Shown: positions 2,792 to 36,563 of the stretch, piece by piece
Numbering within the stretch: the first letter of the stretch is position 1
Layout of the letters: each line of letters opens with the position of its first letter
Made by a program: the position numbers and the translations under genes
The notes under the pieces: model-generated
Seen by the model: only the letters and a program-made list of their open reading frames with translations
What the model was told of the DNA's origin: nothing
The model's database searches: none
Assembly: GCA_024400565.1 (NCBI GenBank)
Contig: JAKSMQ010000013.1
Location: 1-41,289, forward strand
Reading direction: 5' to 3'
DNA from: Bacteroidales bacterium
GTDB lineage: Bacteria > Bacteroidota > Bacteroidia > Bacteroidales > P3
Length of the DNA: 41,289 bases

Positions 2792-3817
2792 CTATTCAAT
2801 AATTAGTTTCTGAAATTCGGGTGTTGCGTAAGTCTTATTGCTGCCGTTGTCGTCGTAGATGAAGAATACGGCCTGGGGCTGGTCGGGATTATTCTTGAGC
2901 CATTCTAATGCTTTGTCTAGTCCCATTACCATAAACGATGTTGCCAGTCCGTCGGCAAGCCAGCTCTCGTTGGCTATTACTGATACACTCAATAGGGAAT
3001 GTTCAACAGGATAGCCTGTTGAAGGGTCGATAGTATGGGAGAAACGTACGCCATTCTTCTCGTAATACTTTCTATAATTGCCGGACGTGACGACTGAACA
3101 GTCGCAAAGTTTTATCATGGTTTCAACCTCGGGTATGGCGTCTTTGTCTTTGGCGGGACGCTCGATACCTACAGTCCAGGATTTACCATCGGGCTTATGG
3201 CCAAAAGCAATCACCTCGCCTCCTACATCAATCAGATGGTTGTTGATGCCAAGACTTTTAAGGTACTTGCTGATGAGGTCGACGCTATATCCCTGACCTA
3301 TGGCGTTGAAGTCGTATTCCTGGCCTGCTATTGTGCGTTCTATGGTAGAGATGGATCCATCAGATGTGATTGAGAAATTGTGGGCTGTAGCCAGCAAGAG
3401 GCTGTCTACCCGTTTCTGGTTCATATCCGACGCTTTGTCGAAGGCAAATCCCCACGCACGTACCAGCTTGCCGACGGCGCAACTGAATGCCCCATCGGTA
3501 TGACTATAGAGCCAGTCATCCTGGCGGAAGAGCTCGGAGAGAATAGGATCTAGGGTATCGGTAAGTCCTGCGTTGAGACGGCGCAGATTCGAGGTCTCAA
3601 CCCATAATGAAGCCGAGAGGTCGAATGCCTTGAGTATGGAGTCTATCTGAGGCTGAAGGTCGCGTTGCTGCTCGTCATAATATATAATAGAATAATAGGT
3701 GCCTTGGGCCTGGCCTTTAAGACGGATGGGCTCAAGCGCTTCGGTAGTCTTATTCTGATGGCAGCCGATAAGAACGGTTGTGGCTATTAGTATTAAGAAA
3801 GGAAGATGTCTACGCAT
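2792..3817 (-). CDS. apbE: FAD:protein FMN transferase, lipoprotein
   Basis: About 341 aa from the ATG at 3815-3817. ApbE transfers FMN from FAD onto threonines of exported flavoproteins such as Nqr/Rnf subunits, at the outer face of the inner membrane. The N-terminus MRRHLPFLILIATTVLIGC is a lipoprotein signal with lipobox LIGC. Family motifs are present in order: TYYSIIY, YDFNAIGQGYSVD, HLIDVGGEV, SHTIDPSTGYP and ADGLATSFMVMG (Mg/FAD site). An upstream in-frame ATG at 3853 would add 12 residues, but it lies inside the preceding gene's terminator stem and would spoil the signal peptide. The start at 3817 also has AAGGTG about 10 bp upstream. No flavoprotein partner is in the window. Confidence 0.92.
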   Translation of the reverse strand: MRRHLPFLILIATTVLIGCHQNKTTEALEPIRLKGQAQGTYYSIIYYDEQQRDLQPQIDSILKAFDLSASLWVETSNLRRLNAGLTDTLDPILSELFRQDDWLYSHTDGAFSCAVGKLVRAWGFAFDKASDMNQKRVDSLLLATAHNFSITSDGSISTIERTIAGQEYDFNAIGQGYSVDLISKYLKSLGINNHLIDVGGEVIAFGHKPDGKSWTVGIERPAKDKDAIPEVETMIKLCDCSVVTSGNYRKYYEKNGVRFSHTIDPSTGYPVEHSLLSVSVIANESWLADGLATSFMVMGLDKALEWLKNNPDQPQAVFFIYDDNGSNKTYATPEFQKLIIE

Positions 3818-3826
3818 GAATATCAC

Positions 3827-3864
3827 CTTAAGAAAAAAGCGTCCGATTGGCATCGAACGCTTTT
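3827..3864 (-). terminator. Terminator after the T9SS cargo gene
   Basis: Stem 3835-3847 with 3852-3864 (13 bp, one G-T pair), loop TGGC. Read on the minus strand it is AAAAGCGTTCGAT, loop, ATCGGACGCTTTT, then TTCTT. It lies between the cargo gene stop (3885) and the apbE start (3817). Confidence 0.85.
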
Positions 3865-3884
3865 AGTATTATCTGTGTTCGGTA

Positions 3885-5366
3885 TTAGCGAGCGATAACA
3901 AAATTGCGAACCTCTACCTGGCCGTTCTTGAGCTGAACGCGGAGAACGTAGGTGCCGTTTGCAAGATGACCGAGGTTAAGAGTGTTGCTGGTCATGTTGT
4001 AGGACTGCATTACACGCTGACCCATTACATTGTAGATAGCGATGTTGTCGATACCTTCAACGCATTCGAGGGAAATCTGAGTGGTAGCAGGGTTGGGGTA
4101 GAGTTTGAGGGTGCTGCTGTTAGCGTCGGCGATGCCTTCGTTAACCATTACAGTAACCTTGGTAGTGTCGGTACATTGGGTGCTTGCGTTGATTGCTACA
4201 AGGCTGAAGTCAGTATTCTCAGAAAGTGCATCGGTAACAATGCTGTCGGCGGTAGAAATCTGAGTGTTCTGAGCGTTGAACCATTTGAAGTTTACATTCT
4301 GGTCGCAGGTTGCGAAGAGGGTAGTGGAAGTGTTGGGACGGAGGTTGATGTCGCCTTCGATTACAGCAACGGGTGACTTGAAGATGGTGAGGGTGAGAAC
4401 GTAGTTGCTGTCGCAGTTCTGGGAGTTTACACCAACTTTAACTTTCTGCTGGCTGATGTTATTGCTGAAAATGGTATCGTAGTCGTGAGCGATGGTATCG
4501 ATTGTAGTATTGGTAGTGTCGCCGGATTCGTTAACATCGTAGTTGTATTTGTAGGTGAAATAGGTACCTGCAAGACGATACTGGTCGCAAACTTTGGGGT
4601 CAACGATGCTTACGTTGGTGCTGTGGCGAACGTTGAGGTGGGTGTAGAGAACGCTGTCGTAGCATTGTGCCTGGTTAGCTTCGCGTTTGTGGAAATATCT
4701 CCAGTATGCGGAACCGGGGGTAGCATACTGCTCGGAGCTTACTACGGTATCCTGGGTGAAGTTCTGCCAAGTGTTGGTGAATTTGTACTTGATAGTGTCG
4801 CACTTTGAAACATTTACGTGATGACTGATGGCAGTAGGAGTGAGGATGGTAAGATTGAGCGAGAGCACAGAGTCGCAAAGACCATTGGGGTCAACGAAAG
4901 TGCGGTTGCTGATAACGGTGCTGGAGGTGAGGGTATCGTTTTTCCAGATGTAAGAATCGCAAGCGGTAACAGTATAGGAAGCGCTTGCGGAACTGGAAAG
5001 GGTGAGAATGATGGATGCCATACTGTCGCAACCATGTGAGCTCTGGAATTTTCTGGTGTAGGTACCTGCAGCGGCGAGAGTGGTATCGCCCCAGGTGTAG
5101 GTGCAACCGCCATCAATAGGAACAACGCTTACGGGAGTGTTGTATACGGGATAGATGGTGAGGTCGAGGACATAGAGGGTGTCGTGGGTCTGGGTGAAGT
5201 AGGTGTATACACCCGACTCGGTGTAGGTCTGGCCGTTCAAGCTCCAGGTGTAGGAACCACAGGTGTCCTTGTGCTGAACTTCGCTGTAGCTGGCATTGGA
5301 TTGTGCCTGCATCATGAAAGGCATCAATACGGCCATCAATAAGGTAATGAATAGTCTTTTTTTCAT
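3885..5366 (-). CDS. Secreted T9SS cargo with Cys-paired repeat modules
   Basis: 493 aa with a clear signal peptide (MKKRLFITLLMAVLMPFMMQAQ). Residues 418-493 form a type A T9SS sorting domain: KLYPNPATTQISLE, IYNVMGQ and GTYVLRV in the usual spacing. The middle is a string of beta-rich modules carrying pairs of cysteines (88/113, 136/164, 189/235, 260/318). These use recurring phrases such as CDSYIW, GTYT and CDSxxxLxLTI, which are common in Bacteroidetes surface proteins. About residues 330-408 look like an Ig/PKD-like domain. The protein should cross the outer membrane through T9SS and be released or anchored to A-type LPS after CTD cleavage. No enzymatic motif is seen, so the role is probably structural or adhesive. 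It has its own promoter and terminator. Confidence 0.88.
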   Translation of the reverse strand: MKKRLFITLLMAVLMPFMMQAQSNASYSEVQHKDTCGSYTWSLNGQTYTESGVYTYFTQTHDTLYVLDLTIYPVYNTPVSVVPIDGGCTYTWGDTTLAAAGTYTRKFQSSHGCDSMASIILTLSSSASASYTVTACDSYIWKNDTLTSSTVISNRTFVDPNGLCDSVLSLNLTILTPTAISHHVNVSKCDTIKYKFTNTWQNFTQDTVVSSEQYATPGSAYWRYFHKREANQAQCYDSVLYTHLNVRHSTNVSIVDPKVCDQYRLAGTYFTYKYNYDVNESGDTTNTTIDTIAHDYDTIFSNNISQQKVKVGVNSQNCDSNYVLTLTIFKSPVAVIEGDINLRPNTSTTLFATCDQNVNFKWFNAQNTQISTADSIVTDALSENTDFSLVAINASTQCTDTTKVTVMVNEGIADANSSTLKLYPNPATTQISLECVEGIDNIAIYNVMGQRVMQSYNMTSNTLNLGHLANGTYVLRVQLKNGQVEVRNFVIAR

Positions 5367-5479
5367 CTTTCAGTACTGAATTTAATAGTCCTTATTATTT
5401 TTTATTTTCTTTCTAACTTAATGTCTGATAGGCATATTAAGGCTTTGTGAATGCACTCTGCCTTTTTACTATCAATATG

Positions 5480-5487
5480 CAAAGATA
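5480..5487 (-). promoter_or_regulatory. -7 box upstream of the T9SS cargo gene
   Basis: TATCTTTG on the minus strand, a perfect Bacteroidales TAnnTTTG element, about 110 bp before the start codon. The -33 region is AT-rich without a clean TTTG. Confidence 0.55.
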
Positions 5488-5513
5488 ATATTTTTTTTTA
5501 ATATAGAACTAAT

Positions 5514-7010
5514 TTAATGTTTTTTTAGAGATAATTTGACCACATTTTCCACATGCTGGGTGTGGGGGAACATGTCGACGGGCTGGATAGCAACCACGTC
5601 GTATTTGCTTGACAGAAGTTCCAAATCACGGGCTTGGGTAGCTGGATTGCAGCTTACATACACGATGGTCGGAGCCTCGGTCATAAGCAGCTGTTCTACC
5701 ACCTTCTCGTGCATACCGGCACGGGGAGGGTCTGTTACCACTACGTCGGGACGTCCGTTCTGGGCGATGAACTCTTCGGTCAGAACCTTTGCCATGTCTC
5801 CGGCATAGAAGACCGTGTTGTCGAATCCGTTGTGGGTGGAGTTGATTCGTGCGTCGGCAATGGCCTCTTCCACATACTCGATACCCACCACCTTCTTGGC
5901 TTTCTCGGCCAGGAAGAGGGCTATGGTTCCCGTTCCGGTGTAGAGGTCGTAGAGAGTCTCCTGGCCCGTAAGGCCTGCAAATTCTGCTACAAAGCTGTAG
6001 AGCCGCTGGGCCTGGAGCGAATTGGTCTGGAAGAATGATTTGGGGTTGATCTTGAACTGCAGGGTCTTCCCGCCCTTGTAGCCTTCCATCTGCTCGAGAA
6101 TATGGTCTGCCCCGGCATAGGTGATGACCTCAAGCTGGTCGAGCGTGTCGTTGAACTTGTTGTTGACTACATACTGAAGGGAGGTAATCTGAGGGAATCT
6201 CTCTTTAATCATCTCCAGAAGAGGGAACAGTTGAGCCCGAGCCTCTTCGGTAAGGGTCTGGTCCTTCTGCTCTCCGCCCGTAGCTATGGATATCAGCAAC
6301 ATCCAATGACCCATGGTAGTGTTGCGGATCATTATGTTGCGCAGGAAACCGGTATGGTTTCTTATGTCGTAGAAGGGCAGCTTGTGCTCGAGAGCGTAGT
6401 CTCGGATGGCCATGCGTATGGCATTCGAGGGGTCGGCCTGAAGGGCACAATGTTCTATGTTGAGCACTTTGTCGAACAGCTGGGGAGCATGGAATCCCAA
6501 TGCACCCGGGTCGTCAGCCAAAGCTTCGCGAGGAGTGGATTCCATCTCCTCGGTACTGCGCCAACGTTTGCTCGAAAAGGTGTATTCCAGTTTGTTGCGA
6601 TAGTAGAAGATGTTCTCCGATCCGCATATGGGACGCATCGAAGAGCAGTCTACACGACCCAGCCGTTCCAGGTTGTCGCGTACCTGTTTCTCCTTGTACA
6701 CAATCTGGTCGGCATAGCTCATGGTCTGCCACTTGCATCCGCCGCAGTTGCCAAAATGGGGACATTGGGCTTCCACTCGCTTGGGCGATGGCTTCTTGAT
6801 AGAAATAGCCCTACCTTCGGCGTAGTTCTTCTTCTTTTTGAAGACCTTAAGGTCAACAATATCGCCGGGGACTACAAAGGGAACAAATACTACCAGGCTT
6901 TGTCCGTCGCCTTCGGCATCAACTTTGGCTATGGCCATGCCTTCGGCTGCTGCATCCACTATCTCAACATCGTAGTAGATGGTCTCTTTCTTGGTTTTTC
7001 TCATCTTCAT
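5514..7010 (-). CDS. rlmD: 23S rRNA (uracil-C5) methyltransferase, RlmD/TrmA family
   Basis: 498 aa. A TRAM domain (about 8-75) precedes a 4Fe-4S cluster site with Cys83, Cys89, Cys92 (CPHFGNCGGC) and a fourth Cys at 188 (IEHCAL). The C-terminal Rossmann methyltransferase shows FFQTNSLQAQRLY (327-338), the SAM motif LYDLYTGTGT (353-362), TDPPRAG (426-432) and the catalytic Cys454 in YVSCNPATQARDL. RlmD makes m5U1939 in 23S rRNA in E. coli. Close relatives RlmC and TrmA act on other sites, and Bacteroidetes members are usually annotated RlmD, so the exact target uridine is inferred. It starts 10 bp after the stop of the secreted-protein gene upstream (8028-7021), so the two form an operon. Confidence 0.9.
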   Translation of the reverse strand: MKMRKTKKETIYYDVEIVDAAAEGMAIAKVDAEGDGQSLVVFVPFVVPGDIVDLKVFKKKKNYAEGRAISIKKPSPKRVEAQCPHFGNCGGCKWQTMSYADQIVYKEKQVRDNLERLGRVDCSSMRPICGSENIFYYRNKLEYTFSSKRWRSTEEMESTPREALADDPGALGFHAPQLFDKVLNIEHCALQADPSNAIRMAIRDYALEHKLPFYDIRNHTGFLRNIMIRNTTMGHWMLLISIATGGEQKDQTLTEEARAQLFPLLEMIKERFPQITSLQYVVNNKFNDTLDQLEVITYAGADHILEQMEGYKGGKTLQFKINPKSFFQTNSLQAQRLYSFVAEFAGLTGQETLYDLYTGTGTIALFLAEKAKKVVGIEYVEEAIADARINSTHNGFDNTVFYAGDMAKVLTEEFIAQNGRPDVVVTDPPRAGMHEKVVEQLLMTEAPTIVYVSCNPATQARDLELLSSKYDVVAIQPVDMFPHTQHVENVVKLSLKKH

Positions 7011-7020
7011 AAATAGAGGT

Positions 7021-8028
7021 CTATAGCTCAGGCTTGTAGGTGTCGAACAGTTTCATTCCTTCGGAGAGATAGGTTGAAGCACACATTATCGTCATCTTGG
7101 AGCTCATGACGGTGATAACGTCATCGGCCTGTGGCTGTTCGGCTCTCAGAGCCTTGTAGGCGGTCTCAATCTGGCTTGCTATGGCCAGCTGTTGTGTCTT
7201 GCGCAGGTTCTGGGCTTGCTGCACGGTTGCTATCTGTCGGGTTGCAGCCTCTTTCAGATAGTCAGACAGTCCGGCCTTGCCTTTGGCTGCATATTTGCTG
7301 TTCCAGAGATTCTCGCACTCTTCGAGAGTCTTGTTGTACATCCCGTAAATGATGCTGTCTATAGAGTTGTATTGCTCCATAAGAGCCAGATAACGCTTGG
7401 CGGTAGCGGTTTCATAATTGAAGGCGTTCTTCACCAAGGAGTTGTAGGCCGCCGAAGGGTTGATATTTGAGTTGGAAAGGACTGCCTTCATTTCCTCTTC
7501 GCTCATGTTTTCAAGCTGTTCGAGAGAGGCGTTGATTCCCATTTTCCGGAGAGTGTTATCTCGAATGCGTTGGTAAACAGCCTCCTGTTCTTCCTCGGAC
7601 ATCTGCTCGAGTTGTTCGGGGGTGACACCCACTTCGGCAAGGCGGTCTCTCTGCATGTTGTCTGCCCAACTGGAGAGCTTGTCAGAGGAACTGGTAAAGG
7701 CAACTCCGTTGGCTCCAGCTATGGCCATGTTCAGCTGGGTCTGGAAGGCGGCTGCAGGGTTAAGCATCAGCTTGAATGGGTTTGCGTTACCGGATATTAC
7801 CATCATCTCGTAGTCGGCAATCTGCTGAGCGTTGGGCATGGCTGGCATCTGGGCCATCAGCTCTTCGGCGGTAGGCATTTCGTCCTGAGAGCCTTTGTTG
7901 TCCTGCTGGGTCGAGTTCTGCTGTTTGTTTATCGCGTTGAGACCTTTGCCAATGAGGTCGAGAATCTGGGCGTTGGCGGAAACCGAAGCCACAATCATGG
8001 CTACGATTATTACTAATGATTTCTTCAT
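7021..8028 (-). CDS. Secreted protein of unknown function
   Basis: 335 aa from MKKSLVIIVAMIVASVSANAQ, a standard signal peptide. The frame stays open further upstream to 8094, but that part overlaps the rpmH terminator and would destroy the signal, so 8028 is the start. The mature part is rich in Gln, Ala and Met and mostly helical. It contains two similar segments, EQLEQMSEEEQEAV and EQLENMSEEEMKAV, about 35 residues apart. There is no recognisable domain, lipobox or sorting signal, so it is probably periplasmic. It lies just upstream of rlmD and probably shares its transcript, though their functions need not be linked. Confidence 0.75.
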   Translation of the reverse strand: MKKSLVIIVAMIVASVSANAQILDLIGKGLNAINKQQNSTQQDNKGSQDEMPTAEELMAQMPAMPNAQQIADYEMMVISGNANPFKLMLNPAAAFQTQLNMAIAGANGVAFTSSSDKLSSWADNMQRDRLAEVGVTPEQLEQMSEEEQEAVYQRIRDNTLRKMGINASLEQLENMSEEEMKAVLSNSNINPSAAYNSLVKNAFNYETATAKRYLALMEQYNSIDSIIYGMYNKTLEECENLWNSKYAAKGKAGLSDYLKEAATRQIATVQQAQNLRKTQQLAIASQIETAYKALRAEQPQADDVITVMSSKMTIMCASTYLSEGMKLFDTYKPEL

Positions 8029-8069
8029 AATAGGTTTTGTGTCAAATTGTGTTAAAACTATCGTGTACG

Positions 8070-8100
8070 GAAAAAAAGAAAGTATTGGATACAATACTTC
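8070..8100 (-). terminator. rpmH terminator
   Basis: Perfect 8-bp stem AAGTATTG (8080-8087) with CAATACTT (8092-8099), loop GATA. On the minus strand it is followed by TCTTTTTTT. Confidence 0.85.
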
Positions 8101-8155
8101 CCTTCTTTCTTAAGCAATGTCATTTCTTCGCCTCTGCAAAGAAATGTTAAATGCA

Positions 8156-8302
8156 CTATCGTTCGTCAGAAACGGTGAGTCTCTTTCTGCCTTTTCTGCG
8201 GCGAGCAGCTAAAACTTTGCGACCATTTGCGGTAGACATTCTCTGACGGAAACCGTGCTTATTTGCTCTTTTTCTGCGTGATGGTTGAAATGTTCTCTTC
8301 AT
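8156..8302 (-). CDS. rpmH: 50S ribosomal protein L34
   Basis: 48 aa, reading [18 protein letters not shown] at the start and ending KRLTVSDER. This is the full conserved L34 signature (KRTFQPS, HGFRx[18 protein letters not shown]). It is a small, very basic ribosomal protein of the large subunit. It has its own promoter at 8325-8354 and its own terminator. In many bacteria rpmH lies beside rnpA and dnaA; neither is present here, which is normal for Bacteroidetes. Confidence 0.98.
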
Positions 8303-8324
8303 TTTTACTCAAATTTTGGAATTG

Positions 8325-8354
8325 CAAAAGTACACATATTTTTTGAACTGGCAA
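8325..8354 (-). promoter_or_regulatory. rpmH promoter
   Basis: On the minus strand TTG (8352-8354), 19 nt, then TACTTTTG (8325-8332). This is a close match to the Bacteroidales -33/-7 consensus, 22 bp before the start codon. Confidence 0.8.
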
Positions 8355-8509
8355 GAAAAAACTTTCTAAATCTTTATTTTTTAACAATTGATAAGAACCG
8401 TAAGAGGCGAAAGGAGGGCGGTTTTTTATTCTCTTTTTGGTGGCAGTTCTCCATAGAAAATCATTCTGCCAGGGGGATTTTTGTTTCGTCCGTCCCTTGT
8501 GAAGGCACA

Positions 8510-8620
8510 TTCTCTCCACGTTCTCTCCACGTTCTCTCCATATTCTCTCCATACTGGCAGCACTATTGCCCTTTTGGGTGGACCCTATGTGGAGCCTGTG
8601 TGCCCGCTAGGTGCTCTTTA
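8510..8620. repeat. 11-bp unit arrays in inverted orientation, locus A
   Basis: Left array: units starting at 8510, 8521, 8532 and 8543 read TTCTCTCCA plus CG or TA. The phase continues with CTGGCAGCACT (8554) and ATTGCCCTTTT (8565). Right array: GGTGGACCCTA (8577), TGTGGAGCCTG (8588), TGTGCCCGCTA (8599) and GGTGCTCTTTA (8610), the inverted version of the unit. It lies in the 500-bp gap between divergent rpmH and the TPR gene, and resembles locus B at 26981-27126. The rest of the gap (8355-8509 and 8621-8759) shows nothing I can name beyond a weak T-tailed hairpin at 8396-8427. Confidence 0.7.
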
Positions 8621-8759
8621 TACAGATTCGTTCAATCGCTAGGGCTTATGAAAACAAAGCTCAAATCCGATATGCCCCGAGAAGGTCGGAATCAAGTCAG
8701 GAAACCCCTAAAAGAGCGGTATAAATGAATTGTTTTTTCTCTATATAAAAAAAAATATG

Positions 8760-8767
8760 TACCTTTG
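8760..8767 (+). promoter_or_regulatory. -7 box for the TPR-secG operon
   Basis: TACCTTTG, a perfect TAnnTTTG, 35 bp before the start codon at 8803. About 21 nt upstream is only a T-run (8733-8738) as -33 candidate. Confidence 0.65.
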
Positions 8768-8802
8768 CAAAATTATTTCGGAAGTAAAAAACACAAATCA
8801 GC

Positions 8803-9465
8803 ATGGAAAAGTCTACCTTTTACAGCAAGATACAAAATCCCGGCACCTATACGCTAGAGGAGAAATTGGCAATTCAGAACGAGAAAACTCATTTTCCCTA
8901 CTGCGCTTTGCTTCAGCAGATGGACCTTCTTAGCGATAAGGCTGCCAGTATCTATCAATGGGAAGAACGTTTTGTTCCCCGCGTATCGCTTTACATGCCC
9001 CAGCCCGAACGTCTGAGAGCGCTCCTGGACGGCGTTGAGGTGATAGATATCGCCACCCCCGACCAGCTCAAGATGAAACAGCAGATAGAGGAACGCAAGC
9101 GCAAGGAATTCTCTACCGACGAGCCCGATGCTTTCGATGTAATGTCGGAGATCAACTCCTATCAGGATGTCTCTTTCAAGACTGCTCCCAAGAGCGAAAT
9201 TCTTTCGAAATTTCTCGAAGCGGGTAATGTTCAGCCCACTTCCAACACGGCTTCGGAGGCTTTACCTACCGAAAATATTGCAAAAAAATCGAATTCCCTC
9301 AACGAGACCATAGAGACTGAAACTATGGCAGTTATATTCGAAAAGCAAGGCAAGATACAGCAGGCTATAGATATTTATATGAAATTAATATCTAAAAATC
9401 CCGAAAAAAGTAGTACTTTTGCAGTTCGAATTGAAGAATTAAAAACCAAGTTGGAAACAAAATAA
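8803..9465 (+). CDS. TPR-containing protein upstream of secG
   Basis: 220 aa, no signal peptide or membrane segment, so cytoplasmic. The C-terminal about 50 residues contain one tetratricopeptide-like helix pair (MAVIFEKQGKIQQAIDIYMK, then LISKNPEKSSTFAVRIEEL). The N-terminal part is helical and unassigned, with a charged linker near residues 85-160. A protein of this layout directly upstream of secG is a conserved Bacteroidetes arrangement. The two genes are 11 bp apart and share the promoter at 8760. Its role is not established; an accessory function at the Sec translocon is only suggested by position. Confidence 0.8.
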   Translation: MEKSTFYSKIQNPGTYTLEEKLAIQNEKTHFPYCALLQQMDLLSDKAASIYQWEERFVPRVSLYMPQPERLRALLDGVEVIDIATPDQLKMKQQIEERKRKEFSTDEPDAFDVMSEINSYQDVSFKTAPKSEILSKFLEAGNVQPTSNTASEALPTENIAKKSNSLNETIETETMAVIFEKQGKIQQAIDIYMKLISKNPEKSSTFAVRIEELKTKLETK

Positions 9466-33658: not shown

Positions 33659-33925
33659 ATGAAGATAGATAACAGACTCACACTCCGCGAAGTTGTAGGA
33701 GAACATCTGATTGTGATTCAAGGAAAAACCGATGCAGAACTTTCAAAGGTCGTAGCCTTCAATTCTACCTCGGTTATGCTCTGGAATCATTTCTTGGAGA
33801 AAGATTTTACTGTTGAGGATGTACAGCAACGCCTGCTCGAAGAGTTTGACGTGACGGAAGAAATAGCTCTTAACGATGCACAAGCGTGGGTCGACACCCT
33901 CAAGCAAAACAATATGGTTCAATAA
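33659..33925 (+). CDS. PqqD family peptide-binding protein (RRE-like)
   Basis: 88 aa, the typical length. MKIDNRLTLREVVGEHLIVI, FNSTSVMLWNHF and the winged-helix tail TVEDVQQRLLEEFDV with DAQAWVDTLKQNNMV match the PqqD fold. PqqD-like proteins bind leader peptides of ribosomally made modified peptides and present them to maturation enzymes. 3 bp before the HPr-kinase-like gene. No radical SAM enzyme or obvious precursor is adjacent, so the peptide substrate is unknown. Confidence 0.88.
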   Translation: MKIDNRLTLREVVGEHLIVIQGKTDAELSKVVAFNSTSVMLWNHFLEKDFTVEDVQQRLLEEFDVTEEIALNDAQAWVDTLKQNNMVQ

Positions 33926-33928
33926 CCT

Positions 33929-34819
33929 ATGACATCCGTTAATCTCAATATCGCCAATCTGCTTTTCCAGGTCAGAGGGGGAGAAGAATCAAAGTTGATT
34001 CCCGATATCCTCGGATTTGCCCCGTTCTTGGCTCCCGAAACGGATGAAAAACCTCATGGCCAGATGATCTTCGGGGGAGAATGGACCGAAGATGTAGAGC
34101 ACGAATGCACACTCTTCGAGTTCGTCTTTTCTGATGCCGACATCCGATGCCGTTTCTCAAGAACGGCCTCAGACTATCGTTTCTATATGCAGCCCGAGGA
34201 TAAAGTAGAGCAGACCTTGAGACTGGTCTATAAACTGGATTCGTCCACGATAGTATGTGCCACAAAAAATGGCCAGCCTTGTCTCAACGACACGATGCTC
34301 CGTTACGGGCTCTGGTTTGGCTTTGTGCTGGTCTGTGCCGAGAACAACCGGACCCTTATTCATTCCTCGACAATAGTCCATCATCAAGAGGCAGTATTGT
34401 TTCTTGGAGAATCCGGAACGGGCAAGAGCACGCATACTCGCTTGTGGCTAAAACATATTGAGGACTCCCATCTGCTCAACGACGATTGTCCCGTATTGGC
34501 CTGCGAAGATGGGCAGATGATGGTTTACGGTTCCCCCTGGAGTGGTAAGACGGCTTGCTTTCATAACAAGCGCTTCCCCCTTAAAGGAGTCGTCCGTCTC
34601 TCTCAGGCATCCGAGAACAAGATCCGCCGGCTTCCTGTCATAGAATCCTTCATGGCCCTGCAGCCCTCGTGTCCGCCGGCATTGGCTTATGATGATATCC
34701 TTTCCGGAAGGATGATAGACCTGATATCCCAAACCATCAGGCTGACCCCCGTCTACCACCTGGCCTGTCTCCCCGACGAGTCGGCCGCTCAATTGAGTTG
34801 CAATACCCTTTTCCAGTAG
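33929..34819 (+). CDS. HPr-kinase-related P-loop kinase
   Basis: 296 aa. The C-terminal half is HprK-like: IHSSTIVHHQEAVLFLG corresponds to the HPr kinase lead-in, GESGTGKST (160-168) is the P-loop, LNDDCPV (183-189) holds the Walker-B-type acidic pair, and YGSPWSGKT (200-208) follows. The N-terminal about 140 residues are a separate beta-rich domain. Such stand-alone HprK relatives are found beside PqqD-like proteins in putative peptide-modification cassettes and are not the PTS regulator. It sits between the PqqD gene (3 bp) and the peptidase gene (0 bp). Phosphorylation of a peptide is inference. Confidence 0.87.
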   Translation: MTSVNLNIANLLFQVRGGEESKLIPDILGFAPFLAPETDEKPHGQMIFGGEWTEDVEHECTLFEFVFSDADIRCRFSRTASDYRFYMQPEDKVEQTLRLVYKLDSSTIVCATKNGQPCLNDTMLRYGLWFGFVLVCAENNRTLIHSSTIVHHQEAVLFLGESGTGKSTHTRLWLKHIEDSHLLNDDCPVLACEDGQMMVYGSPWSGKTACFHNKRFPLKGVVRLSQASENKIRRLPVIESFMALQPSCPPALAYDDILSGRMIDLISQTIRLTPVYHLACLPDESAAQLSCNTLFQ

Positions 34820-35632
34820 ATGAAAGACGCTCCAATCATATTACCCAACGAAATAGTCTTTGCCGAAGTCGAAGACCGTCTGGCACGTGGCGAGCATGTA
34901 ACGATGAAGCTGCAGGGAATTAGTATGAAGCCCTTTATCAATCCCGGCGACAGCTTCACGCTCATACCTTTCGACGGCAAGTTGCAAGAGAATCAGGATG
35001 TAGTTTTGTTTCGTCTGCCCAACGGATTCCATATCCTTCATCGGGTAGTTGGAAGAGTAGGGGATAGGGTCAGAATGCGTGGCGACAATACCCTTACAGG
35101 CGAGGAAGTCCCCGTTCAGAATATCCTCGCAAAGGTAGTAGAGATCAAGAAACCCGGCGGAGTGGTCTATTCCTATGGAGAAGAAACGTGGACAAAGGCT
35201 TCTGCCCATTCGCTCAAGATGCAGAAATACCGTTCCTCGCTCCATTCCCTTCTGGGTTATAGGAGCCGAAGGATTCTGTCTCCTCTCTATTTTGTGTGTC
35301 TGGCCCTTCTGATGTGGCTCCCTATGGGATTTGTTCCTTTGGATAATTTCGTGTTCGGAATTCGTATGGACCATCTTGTCCATGCTTCGGTATATATCCC
35401 CTGCAGCTTTTTCCTGATGGACTGGGTTCTGAATTCCTCAAAATATCTAAGAAAAGGCCTTCTCCAGCTTTGGCTTGTGGGCGTCGGCGTGAGCATTCTG
35501 ACCGAAGGAGTCCAGTATCTGTTGCCCTATCGCGCATTTGATGTGAATGATTTGTGCGCCAATAGTATAGGCGTTACTCTCGGTTGGGCCATCATCGGGT
35601 ATCACAAGAGCCGTCGCAAATTTCAAAGTTGA
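34820..35632 (+). CDS. S24/S26 peptidase fused to a VanZ-like membrane domain
   Basis: 270 aa. Residues 1-125 are signal-peptidase-like (S24/S26): GISMKPFINPGDSF with candidate nucleophile Ser35, QDVVLFRLPNG, HRVVG with His74, and RMRGDN (86-90). This is the Ser/His arrangement of the SipW/Sec11 type, with no Ser/Lys dyad. Residues about 150-262 form a four-helix VanZ-like domain: IRMDHLVHASVYIP (Asp184, His185, His188), ILTEGVQYLLPYRAFDVNDLCAN (Glu229, Gln232, Arg238, Asp241). VanZ is known from low-level teicoplanin resistance. The fusion places a peptidase on a membrane anchor. The start codon abuts the kinase stop and the stop overlaps a small ORF. Confidence 0.85.
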   Translation: MKDAPIILPNEIVFAEVEDRLARGEHVTMKLQGISMKPFINPGDSFTLIPFDGKLQENQDVVLFRLPNGFHILHRVVGRVGDRVRMRGDNTLTGEEVPVQNILAKVVEIKKPGGVVYSYGEETWTKASAHSLKMQKYRSSLHSLLGYRSRRILSPLYFVCLALLMWLPMGFVPLDNFVFGIRMDHLVHASVYIPCSFFLMDWVLNSSKYLRKGLLQLWLVGVGVSILTEGVQYLLPYRAFDVNDLCANSIGVTLGWAIIGYHKSRRKFQS

Positions 35633-35718
35633 TGCTTCGGCAAGGAGGATCCGTGGCCGTAGAAAAGCCAAATCCTTGCCTTAGACAGACCCTTGAGCCG
35701 ATCCAGAAAAGATCCTGA
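35632..35718 (+). CDS. Possible 28-codon peptide overlapping the peptidase stop
   Basis: ATG overlaps the preceding TGA (TGATG), as in translational coupling, and the frame runs 28 codons to TGA at 35716-35718. The peptide starts MLRQGGSV, has a single Cys at 16 and ends PIQKRS. It could be a cassette product or precursor, or a chance frame. The same DNA forms a stem (GGCAAGGA 35639-35646 with TCCTTGCC 35673-35680, inner TGGC/GCCA), so an RNA structure is an alternative explanation. Confidence 0.3.
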   Translation: MLRQGGSVAVEKPNPCLRQTLEPIQKRS

Positions 35719-35837: not shown

Positions 35838-36563
35838 ATGTCAGATTGCCTAGTTATTACCCCTACCTATAATGAGAAGGAAAATATTGAGAATATTATA
35901 CGAAAAGTGTTCTCTTTGGACAAAGAGTTCGATATGCTCATCGTTGAGGATAACTCTCCGGACGGTACGGCTGATATTGTAAAGCGTCTCATGCAGGAGT
36001 TCCCCAACCGCCTTTTTATCAAAGAGCGCAAAGGCAAACTCGGCCTCGGAACAGCCTATCTCGACGGCTTCCGTTGGGGATTGGAAAACGGCTACGACTA
36101 TATGATAGAGATGGATGCCGATTTCTCCCACAATCCCGACGATCTTCCCCGTCTCTACGAAGCCTGTTCTTCGGGCAAAGGCGATGTCGTGGTAGGATCG
36201 CGTTATGTCGATGGCAAGATTAGCGTTGTCAACTGGCCTATGGGCCGACTGATGATGTCGTATTATGCTTCGGTCTACGTGCGTACTGTAACCCGCATGA
36301 AGGTCATGGATGCAACAGCCGGTTTCGTTTGCTATAGCCGCAAGGTTCTGGAGAAGATGAAATTCGATAAGGTCAAATTTATCGGCTATGCCTTCCAGAT
36401 AGAGATGAAATATACTGCGACCCGATTGGGATACCACATCTACGAGGTCCCCATCATCTTTACCGACCGCGTGTTGGGCGTGTCCAAGATGAGTATGAAG
36501 ATCTTCAAGGAGGCCTTCTTTGGCGTGTTCTCTCTCCGTTTCCGCAACTGGAAGAAATATTAA
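35838..36563 (+). CDS. Polyprenol monophosphomannose synthase-like GT2
   Basis: 241 aa, a single GT-A domain. VITPTYNEKENIENII, VEDNSPDGTADIV, KLGLGTAYLDGF and the metal-binding MDADFSHNPDDLP follow the DPM1 pattern. It lacks the C-terminal membrane helices of longer homologues. The family makes dolichyl- or polyprenyl-phosphate-mannose; in Bacteroidetes the donor is probably GDP-mannose or another NDP-hexose. It supplies lipid-linked sugar for glycan or protein O-glycosylation. Own promoter and terminator. Confidence 0.9.
   Translation: MSDCLVITPTYNEKENIENIIRKVFSLDKEFDMLIVEDNSPDGTADIVKRLMQEFPNRLFIKERKGKLGLGTAYLDGFRWGLENGYDYMIEMDADFSHNPDDLPRLYEACSSGKGDVVVGSRYVDGKISVVNWPMGRLMMSYYASVYVRTVTRMKVMDATAGFVCYSRKVLEKMKFDKVKFIGYAFQIEMKYTATRLGYHIYEVPIIFTDRVLGVSKMSMKIFKEAFFGVFSLRFRNWKKY

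Follow-up and report, generated by a model that had tools for sequence, protein, structure and literature searches.

Linear polyphosphorylated peptides (LPP) were reported in May 2026 by Popov et al. from Paenibacillus alginolyticus, with the genes lppA/K/B/S/D/N (PMC13381572). In the accessible part of that report, to which all comparisons with LPP below refer, LppB is a recognition element (RRE) for ribosomally synthesized and post-translationally modified peptides (RiPPs) whose residues N33 and D70 hold the leader Pro and Tyr, LppK is an HprK-like kinase adding several phosphates onto core S3, and LppS is a SipW-like peptidase (S29/H68/D93) performing an RRE-dependent cut after T-1. The leader consensus is YxxPxVLxHQxIxFETxxS, and LPPs are called restricted to Bacillota, with a role described as unknown. 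The window analysed here is a stretch of 41,289 nucleotides from a Bacteroidales bacterium (GenBank assembly GCA_024400565.1, contig JAKSMQ010000013.1, positions 1 to 41,289, forward strand), which carries a trio of genes coding for a PqqD-like protein, an HprK-like kinase and an S26 peptidase fused to a VanZ-like membrane domain. With a probability of roughly 0.78, this trio matures, in trans, the peptides of an LPP-like RiPP system (linear and phosphorylated) of Bacteroidales, which would extend into this order an LPP-type family reported from Bacillota only. The evidence consists of the conserved order and residues of the trio, a family of precursors, the co-occurrence of kinase and leader, and the pairing of precursors with lipoprotein genes.

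All three open reading frames (ORFs) lie on the plus strand. The first (33659-33925) encodes an 88-amino-acid (aa) PqqD-like discrete RRE (LppB-like), the second (33929-34819) an HprK-like kinase of 296 aa (LppK-like) and the third (34820-35632) the fused protein of 270 aa, made of an LppS-like S26 peptidase of SipW/Sec11 type and the VanZ-like domain. The original prediction, made from the sequence alone, had described three genes separated by 3 bp (PqqD/kinase) and 0 bp (kinase/S26-VanZ), with which these coordinates agree, whereas the end it placed at 35718 belongs to a 44-aa ORF with a TTG start that overlaps the third gene, the last base of the trio being 35632. The kinase was found in 87 of 148 related genomes, that of the window included, and 60 regions around kinase matches were fetched. 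Among the 51 same-genus regions, fetched because the kinase is present and counting the window as well as two regions from G031, the order PqqD-HprK-S26 is kept in 48 and is thus not due to chance; the exceptions are two loci with the kinase alone (L068, L069) and one in which kinase and S26 domain share a single ORF (L070). The S26 gene spans at least 225 aa in each of the 48 intact same-genus trios. The kinase search retrieved named relatives from Tidjanibacter and Prevotella, and one from a short contig labelled Ruminococcus. In a phylum-wide search, the kinase reached E<=1e-20 in 6 of 246 other genomes, against 41 of 293 above 100 bits within the order, and is therefore commoner in the order.

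In the 51 regions of the window's genus, the trio has no small ORF resembling a precursor next to it. A first scan beside the trios gave, among the clusters listed, only shadow ORFs of neighbouring genes. The second scan, in which ORFs overlapping longer genes were masked (a step that could hide a genuine small gene), revealed in 13 loci a presumably YidD-like small ORF some 3.4 kb downstream, the remaining clusters being shadows or small. A 90-aa ORF located 140-170 bp upstream of PqqD in seven loci was rejected as a precursor, since it has no leader motif. The original prediction had proposed searching for a conserved short ORF next to the trio and held that its consistent absence would speak against a peptide system; the result in the genus comes close to that situation, but such an absence misleads because the precursors are encoded elsewhere.

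Indeed, a regular-expression scan of the fetched loci yielded one plausible precursor candidate, a 47-aa ORF of L059 that precedes the kinase by 38 bp. Used as a query against 17 genomes, it retrieved two further members from its own genome and a single one from each of G148 and G151, a match in a fourth genome being discarded as it lies inside a 753-aa frame. The resulting five-row profile, with no row from the window's genus, matched 99 of the 148 genomes at E<=5, many of them from that genus. A refined leader profile of 25 positions and 32 rows gave matches in 81 of the 148 at E<=0.01, with a maximum of 22 in G021 and a single one in the window's own genome, on contig C29, 3' of a BspA-type leucine-rich repeat (LRR) gene. 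In three of the 51 genus regions a leader-type ORF occurs 2.7, 5.8 and 7.2 kb from the kinase; a precursor adjoining or inside the cassette occurs in the relatives L059 and L191 and not in the genus.

The composition of the family was established on 59 distinct sequences read in the fetched loci. Each precursor combines a conserved, roughly 20-residue leader, (K)xYxxPx[VIL]xVVEFxVExGFAxS, with a hypervariable acidic tail of 8-56 residues. The tails are devoid of Cys, Lys accounts for 0.5% of their residues, and D+E total 297 versus 36 for K+R. An aromatic residue occupies one of the last six positions in 56 of the 59 tails, whereas 500 shuffles gave a mean of 30.9 and a maximum of 42/59. Six precursors searched in Pfam gave no match except one weak hit in a tail, and the NCBIfam matches all stay below cut-off, two of them being to RiPP leaders (lasso_cyano, StsA). 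In the Prevotella-like genome G143, the leader has diverged to Y.KPDFxVIEx followed by LLTGSG or ILCASG, and these ORFs stand 16 and 28 bp upstream of lipoprotein-like genes.

Such pairing with lipoproteins is usual in the family. For 57 of the 59 precursor ORFs the downstream gene is in view, and a gene with a lipobox follows on the same strand within 200 bp for 39 of the 57, versus 5 of 108 control genes from the same loci (1.4e-18), with a permissive lipobox expression, controls that are longer genes, and tandem paralogs (L135) that are not independent. Ten partner genes were compared with Pfam: two carry BspA LRRs (L155, L134), one a Por secretion tail (L103) and one an Mfa_like_1 match just under cut-off (L159), while six have no match; one partner lipoprotein searched against solved structures gave none either. 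In L135 (genome G021, 3093-8923), four precursor-lipoprotein pairs follow each other in tandem, three of the precursors being near-identical and the lipoproteins paralogous, so that this could be an expanding or phase-variable surface locus.

Leader and kinase also co-occur across genomes. In the genus set (88 genomes, kinase-positive above 100 bits, leader cut-off E<=0.01), the leader is present in 73 of 76 kinase-positive genomes versus 4 of 12 kinase-negative ones (Fisher 1.1e-6). These four are 68-80% complete, and none of the six kinase-negative genomes that are at least 88% complete has a leader at this cut-off; one of the twelve holds a 43-bit kinase match. In the rest of the order (293 genomes), the 41 genomes with the kinase above 100 bits include 9 of the 11 leader-positive ones. 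Once the matches had been read, the kinase is present in 8 of 9 leader-positive genomes versus 33 of the other 284 (p 6e-7); three of the eight share one genus, and two of the eight, of the G318 and G201-type genera, have weak or related matches. In two families (L059, L191), precursor and cassette are physically linked.

Likely catalytic residues of the trio are invariant. The PqqD-like protein, which the original prediction had termed a leader binder, matches PF05402 with an E of 2e-11, above cut-off, and would bind the leader, judging from the RRE family and the YxxP motif; N35 and D73 are invariant in the 17 aligned sequences, and against solved structures its profile finds the lasso RRE TfuB1 (6jx3, E 1.2e-6) and, weakly, TbiB1 (5v1u, 0.077). 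The kinase had been described as an HPr-kinase relative with an intact P-loop. The P-loop, GESGTGKST at residues 160-168 (34406-34432), is intact indeed, and the window protein matches the family models only below their cut-offs, with 18.8 bits for HprK_rel_A TIGR04352 (cut-off 200) and 11.4 bits for Hpr_kinase_C (cut-off 33.3). Among 19 aligned relatives, eight match HprK_rel_A (best 5e-8), five ScmC (4e-10) and four HprK_rel_B TIGR04355 (6e-10), and in Pfam the relatives have PEPCK or AAA matches only. The solved-structure search places HPr kinase 1ko7 (E 0.006) weakly, behind unrelated P-loop proteins and PEPCK. In all 68 of 68 sequences, H145, S162, G163, G165, K166, T168, D186, P203 and N230 are invariant; among them, H145, G163, G165, K166, T168, D186 and N230 are residues an active kinase would need.

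In the third gene, both domains announced by the original prediction (an S24/S26 peptidase and a VanZ-like part) were recovered above cut-offs in Pfam, namely Peptidase_S26 PF10502 (1.5e-5; residues 29-103, 34904-35128) and VanZ PF04892 (1e-10; about residues 145-262, 35252-35605). S35, H74 and D89 of the peptidase are invariant in all 64 aligned sequences, which is consistent with a Ser-His-Asp centre whose Asp is assigned from conservation. The closest solved relatives are SEC11A/C (SEC11A 7p2p, E 3.4e-5) and, judged from sequence, the peptidase is of the SipW/Sec11 type. The VanZ part displays hydrophobic windows beginning near 149-163, 186 and 213-217, and in 12 of 12 aligned sequences D184, H185, H188, E229, Q232, D241, D244 and N248 are invariant. 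It stands in the place taken by an ABC exporter in other lineages, which hints at, without proving, a transport or anchoring role, and the fusion would place the cleavage at the membrane.

By analogy with LppA/B/K/S, the PqqD-like RRE would bind the YxxPx[V/I/L] motif of the precursor as an added beta strand, the kinase would phosphorylate the invariant Ser just past the leader, and the SipW-type peptidase, placed at the membrane by its fused VanZ, would cut behind the invariant Gly (VExG|FAxS) while the RRE holds the precursor. A cut after the invariant Ser, taking A-x-S as a signal-peptidase site, was considered and dropped because the LPP register counted from YxxP assigns the Ser as phospho-acceptor and the cut to the position after Gly (PMC13381572). 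The precursors, scattered in the genome and usually directly upstream of a surface-lipoprotein gene, would be matured in trans by the trio, and because of this position the neighbouring lipoprotein is probably the partner or target of the acidic core peptide. The original prediction's core idea of a system that binds, phosphorylates and cleaves at the membrane is thereby well supported, a functional relative having since been characterised (PMC13381572), in view of which its statement that product and chemistry are unknown was too pessimistic. A bolder scheme, to be taken as tentative and rather doubtful, is that a single RRE/kinase/peptidase unit in the chromosome acts on many precursors unlinked to it, each of them encoded together with a surface lipoprotein of its own. 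The phosphorylated acidic peptide would then be dedicated to a fimbrillin-like or BspA-like surface protein as its ligand, chaperone, plug or covalent mark, and VanZ would replace the exporter in bringing the cleaved peptide through the inner membrane.

Several observations weigh against reading the trio as the maturation unit of these peptides. The window contains no precursor, and its own incomplete genome only one; no exporter adjoins the trio, the kinase's family match is weak in models, Pfam and solved structures alike, and with a cut after Gly the invariant Ser falls at core position 4, not 3 as in LppA (PMC13381572). Within the genus, whose genomes are not independent of each other, G016, G029 and G065 are kinase-positive without a leader match, the kinase of G016 having neither PqqD nor S26 beside it, and three of the six near-complete kinase-negative genomes (G014, G038, G078) each give one weak match to the five-row profile (E 0.02-0.8). 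In the rest of the order, the leader matches of G306 and G355 were spurious on reading, and 33 of the 41 kinase-positive genomes have no leader at cut-off, perhaps because their leaders have diverged as in G143. Finally, G248 (L160), although 99% complete, has a clear leader frame, without evident ATG, and no detected kinase; this may be a relic after loss of the trio.

The last case also fits another explanation, in which the small ORFs belong to lipoprotein operons, as regulatory leader peptides or as small proteins in their own right, have no link to the trio and co-occur with it through shared ancestry. The location of the ORFs in the 5' region of lipoprotein genes and the predominance of one genus among the genomes tested speak in its favour, but the 20-residue motif is kept while its codons vary synonymously (Pro by all four, Tyr by both), which disfavours an attenuator, for which an amino-acid motif would be needless. 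As the co-occurrence extends to several families beyond the genus (8/9), as precursors are physically linked to the cassette in L059 and L191, and as the motif resembles a substrate shown experimentally to be handled by an RRE, a kinase and a peptidase (PMC13381572), this explanation is unlikely. That the trio acts on a different substrate, for example a lasso-like or polysaccharide-linked peptide, the YxxP family belonging to another RRE, is also quite improbable. YxxP is a lasso RRE motif as well, according to the accessible part of PMC12710340, and in the window, as in many genus loci, the gene after the trio encodes a GT2 glycosyltransferase; set against this are the lack of any precursor-like small ORF near the trio, the leader count of 0/6 in near-complete genus genomes without the kinase, the Cys-free tails and the absence of a cyclase from the eight window genes to which the scan was confined. 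Separate housekeeping roles for the three genes (signal peptidase-like processing, HPr-type regulation) would suit a kinase so distant from the curated models. This possibility is very remote: it is already disfavoured by the fusions of HprK with S26 in Prevotella L033 and same-genus L070 and of S24/S26 with an ABC exporter in L065 and L067, in addition to the conserved adjacency (48/51) and to a characterised system with the same three components (LPP, PMC13381572).

Reading the trio as a maturation unit acting in trans has consequences for how such peptides are found and studied. Because the genes served by a single cassette are dispersed, neighbourhood mining overlooks these precursors. Their pairing with surface lipoproteins offers a functional handle for LPP-type peptides and therefore makes a role in surface adhesins or their variation testable, and a candidate role is offered for the VanZ-like domain.

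Cassettes of other families are built differently. Their peptidase is mostly short (149-195 aa where stand-alone), gene order varies, and an ABC exporter, often with an NTP_transf_5 protein, lies inside the same cassette. Complete LPP-like gene sets, including ABC exporter and NTP transferase, are present in L190, L059 and L060, and L191 displays the order precursor, lipoprotein, ABC, S26, PqqD, 246-aa gene, HprK. Kinase and S26 domain follow each other in the single ORF of Prevotella L033 (5968-7338), as in L070, while in L065 (1716-3953) and L067 (1176-3593) the S24/S26 domain is fused N-terminally to the exporter. The original prediction's remark that no exporter is present thus holds beside the trio, where no ABC or NTP-transferase match occurs in the 51 genus regions (flanks vary and some contigs end near the trio), but not for the cassettes of these other families. 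An NTP transferase (PF14907) unlinked to the trio exists in 21 of 22 genus genomes searched, on contig C14 in the window's genome, which does not show that it serves the trio system.

Some features of the surrounding regions were recorded besides. In the window, the GT2 gene extends from 35838 to 36563, a place it keeps in many genus loci, and the next gene there is often one of 637-750 aa, a DPP-IV-like S9 peptidase in L050. In the genus loci L151, L179, L180, L181 and L141, a precursor ORF and an NTP_transf_5 gene unlinked to the trio are at most about 5 kb apart. PqqD and HprK are separated by a gene of 246-250 aa without Pfam match in two genomes belonging to one genus (L191:8021-8758, L193:6788-7537). 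The architecture of L065 and L067 resembles that of peptidase-containing ABC transporters (PCATs), with a serine peptidase. The contig labelled Ruminococcus (L037:415-2672), 3.2 kb long, has a kinase, a PqqD and an NTP transferase related to Bacteroidales ones, and is either mislabelled or the product of a cross-phylum transfer.

HprK-related kinase A/B cassettes (TIGR04352, TIGR04355) have a PqqD partner. They share the kinase family with the trio and differ by the curated cut-off, under which the window kinase remains far (18.8/200 bits), by the S26-VanZ protein and by the dispersed precursors. Lasso systems of the paeninodin/pseudomycoidin type likewise combine a PqqD-type B1 protein, an HPr kinase homolog, a nucleotidyltransferase and an exporter, in the part of the source available (PMC8498205), with a related leader motif, YxxP or WxxP (PMC13381572). 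Here, a SipW-type peptidase stands instead of the transglutaminase-type B2, and neither an Asn-synthetase-like cyclase (C) nor a B2 peptidase occurs among the eight window genes scanned, trio included. As far as the accessible text of PMC12636315 goes, DAG-RiPPs also tie a RiPP to the lipoprotein pathway in Bacteroidota, but their precursor itself becomes the lipoprotein and is modified by an MNIO enzyme, whereas here the peptide is a separate ORF with a Cys-free tail and the lipoprotein is its neighbour. A survey of Bacteroidales RiPPs was, in its accessible part, centred on radical SAM (rSAM)/YcaO and GG-leader PCAT systems (PMC10352776). The literature covered, with most subscription papers outside the search, reports neither this system from Bacteroidota nor LPP precursors that are dispersed or paired with lipoproteins. 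The peptidase set of the LPP report comprises homologs of one protein collected in 2019, and its precursor search covers the cluster plus 5 kb around, so that dispersed precursors would be missed (PMC13381572).

Compared with LPP itself (PMC13381572), the window cassette is a variant of the same kind rather than a full member because three cluster features are missing, namely a linked precursor, an exporter and an NTP transferase. LPP belongs to Bacillota and has clustered precursors, whereas those of Bacteroidales are dispersed and lipoprotein-paired; the genus trio has its peptidase fused to VanZ and no exporter or NTP transferase gene beside it, both of which are found, as in LPP, in the cassettes of the relatives L059, L060 and L190. 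In both systems, a discrete RRE, an HprK-like kinase and a SipW-type peptidase are associated with a YxxP leader and a hypervariable core, with no cyclase in the cassette. A Ser follows shortly after the cut in each, at core position 4 here and 3 in LppA. The H-to-D spacing of the peptidases differs (25 in LppS versus 15 here), and D89 is only a possible counterpart of D93. The S-to-H spacing, however, is 39 in both (S29-H68 and S35-H74), N35 and D73 of PqqD have nearly the spacing of LppB N33 and D70, an equivalence drawn from spacing, and the register counted from the Pro of YxxP puts the conserved E and Gly on LPP positions -3 and -1. Because leader register, peptidase S-to-H spacing and PqqD spacing agree with LPP, the trio is read as the counterpart of LppB, LppK and LppS.

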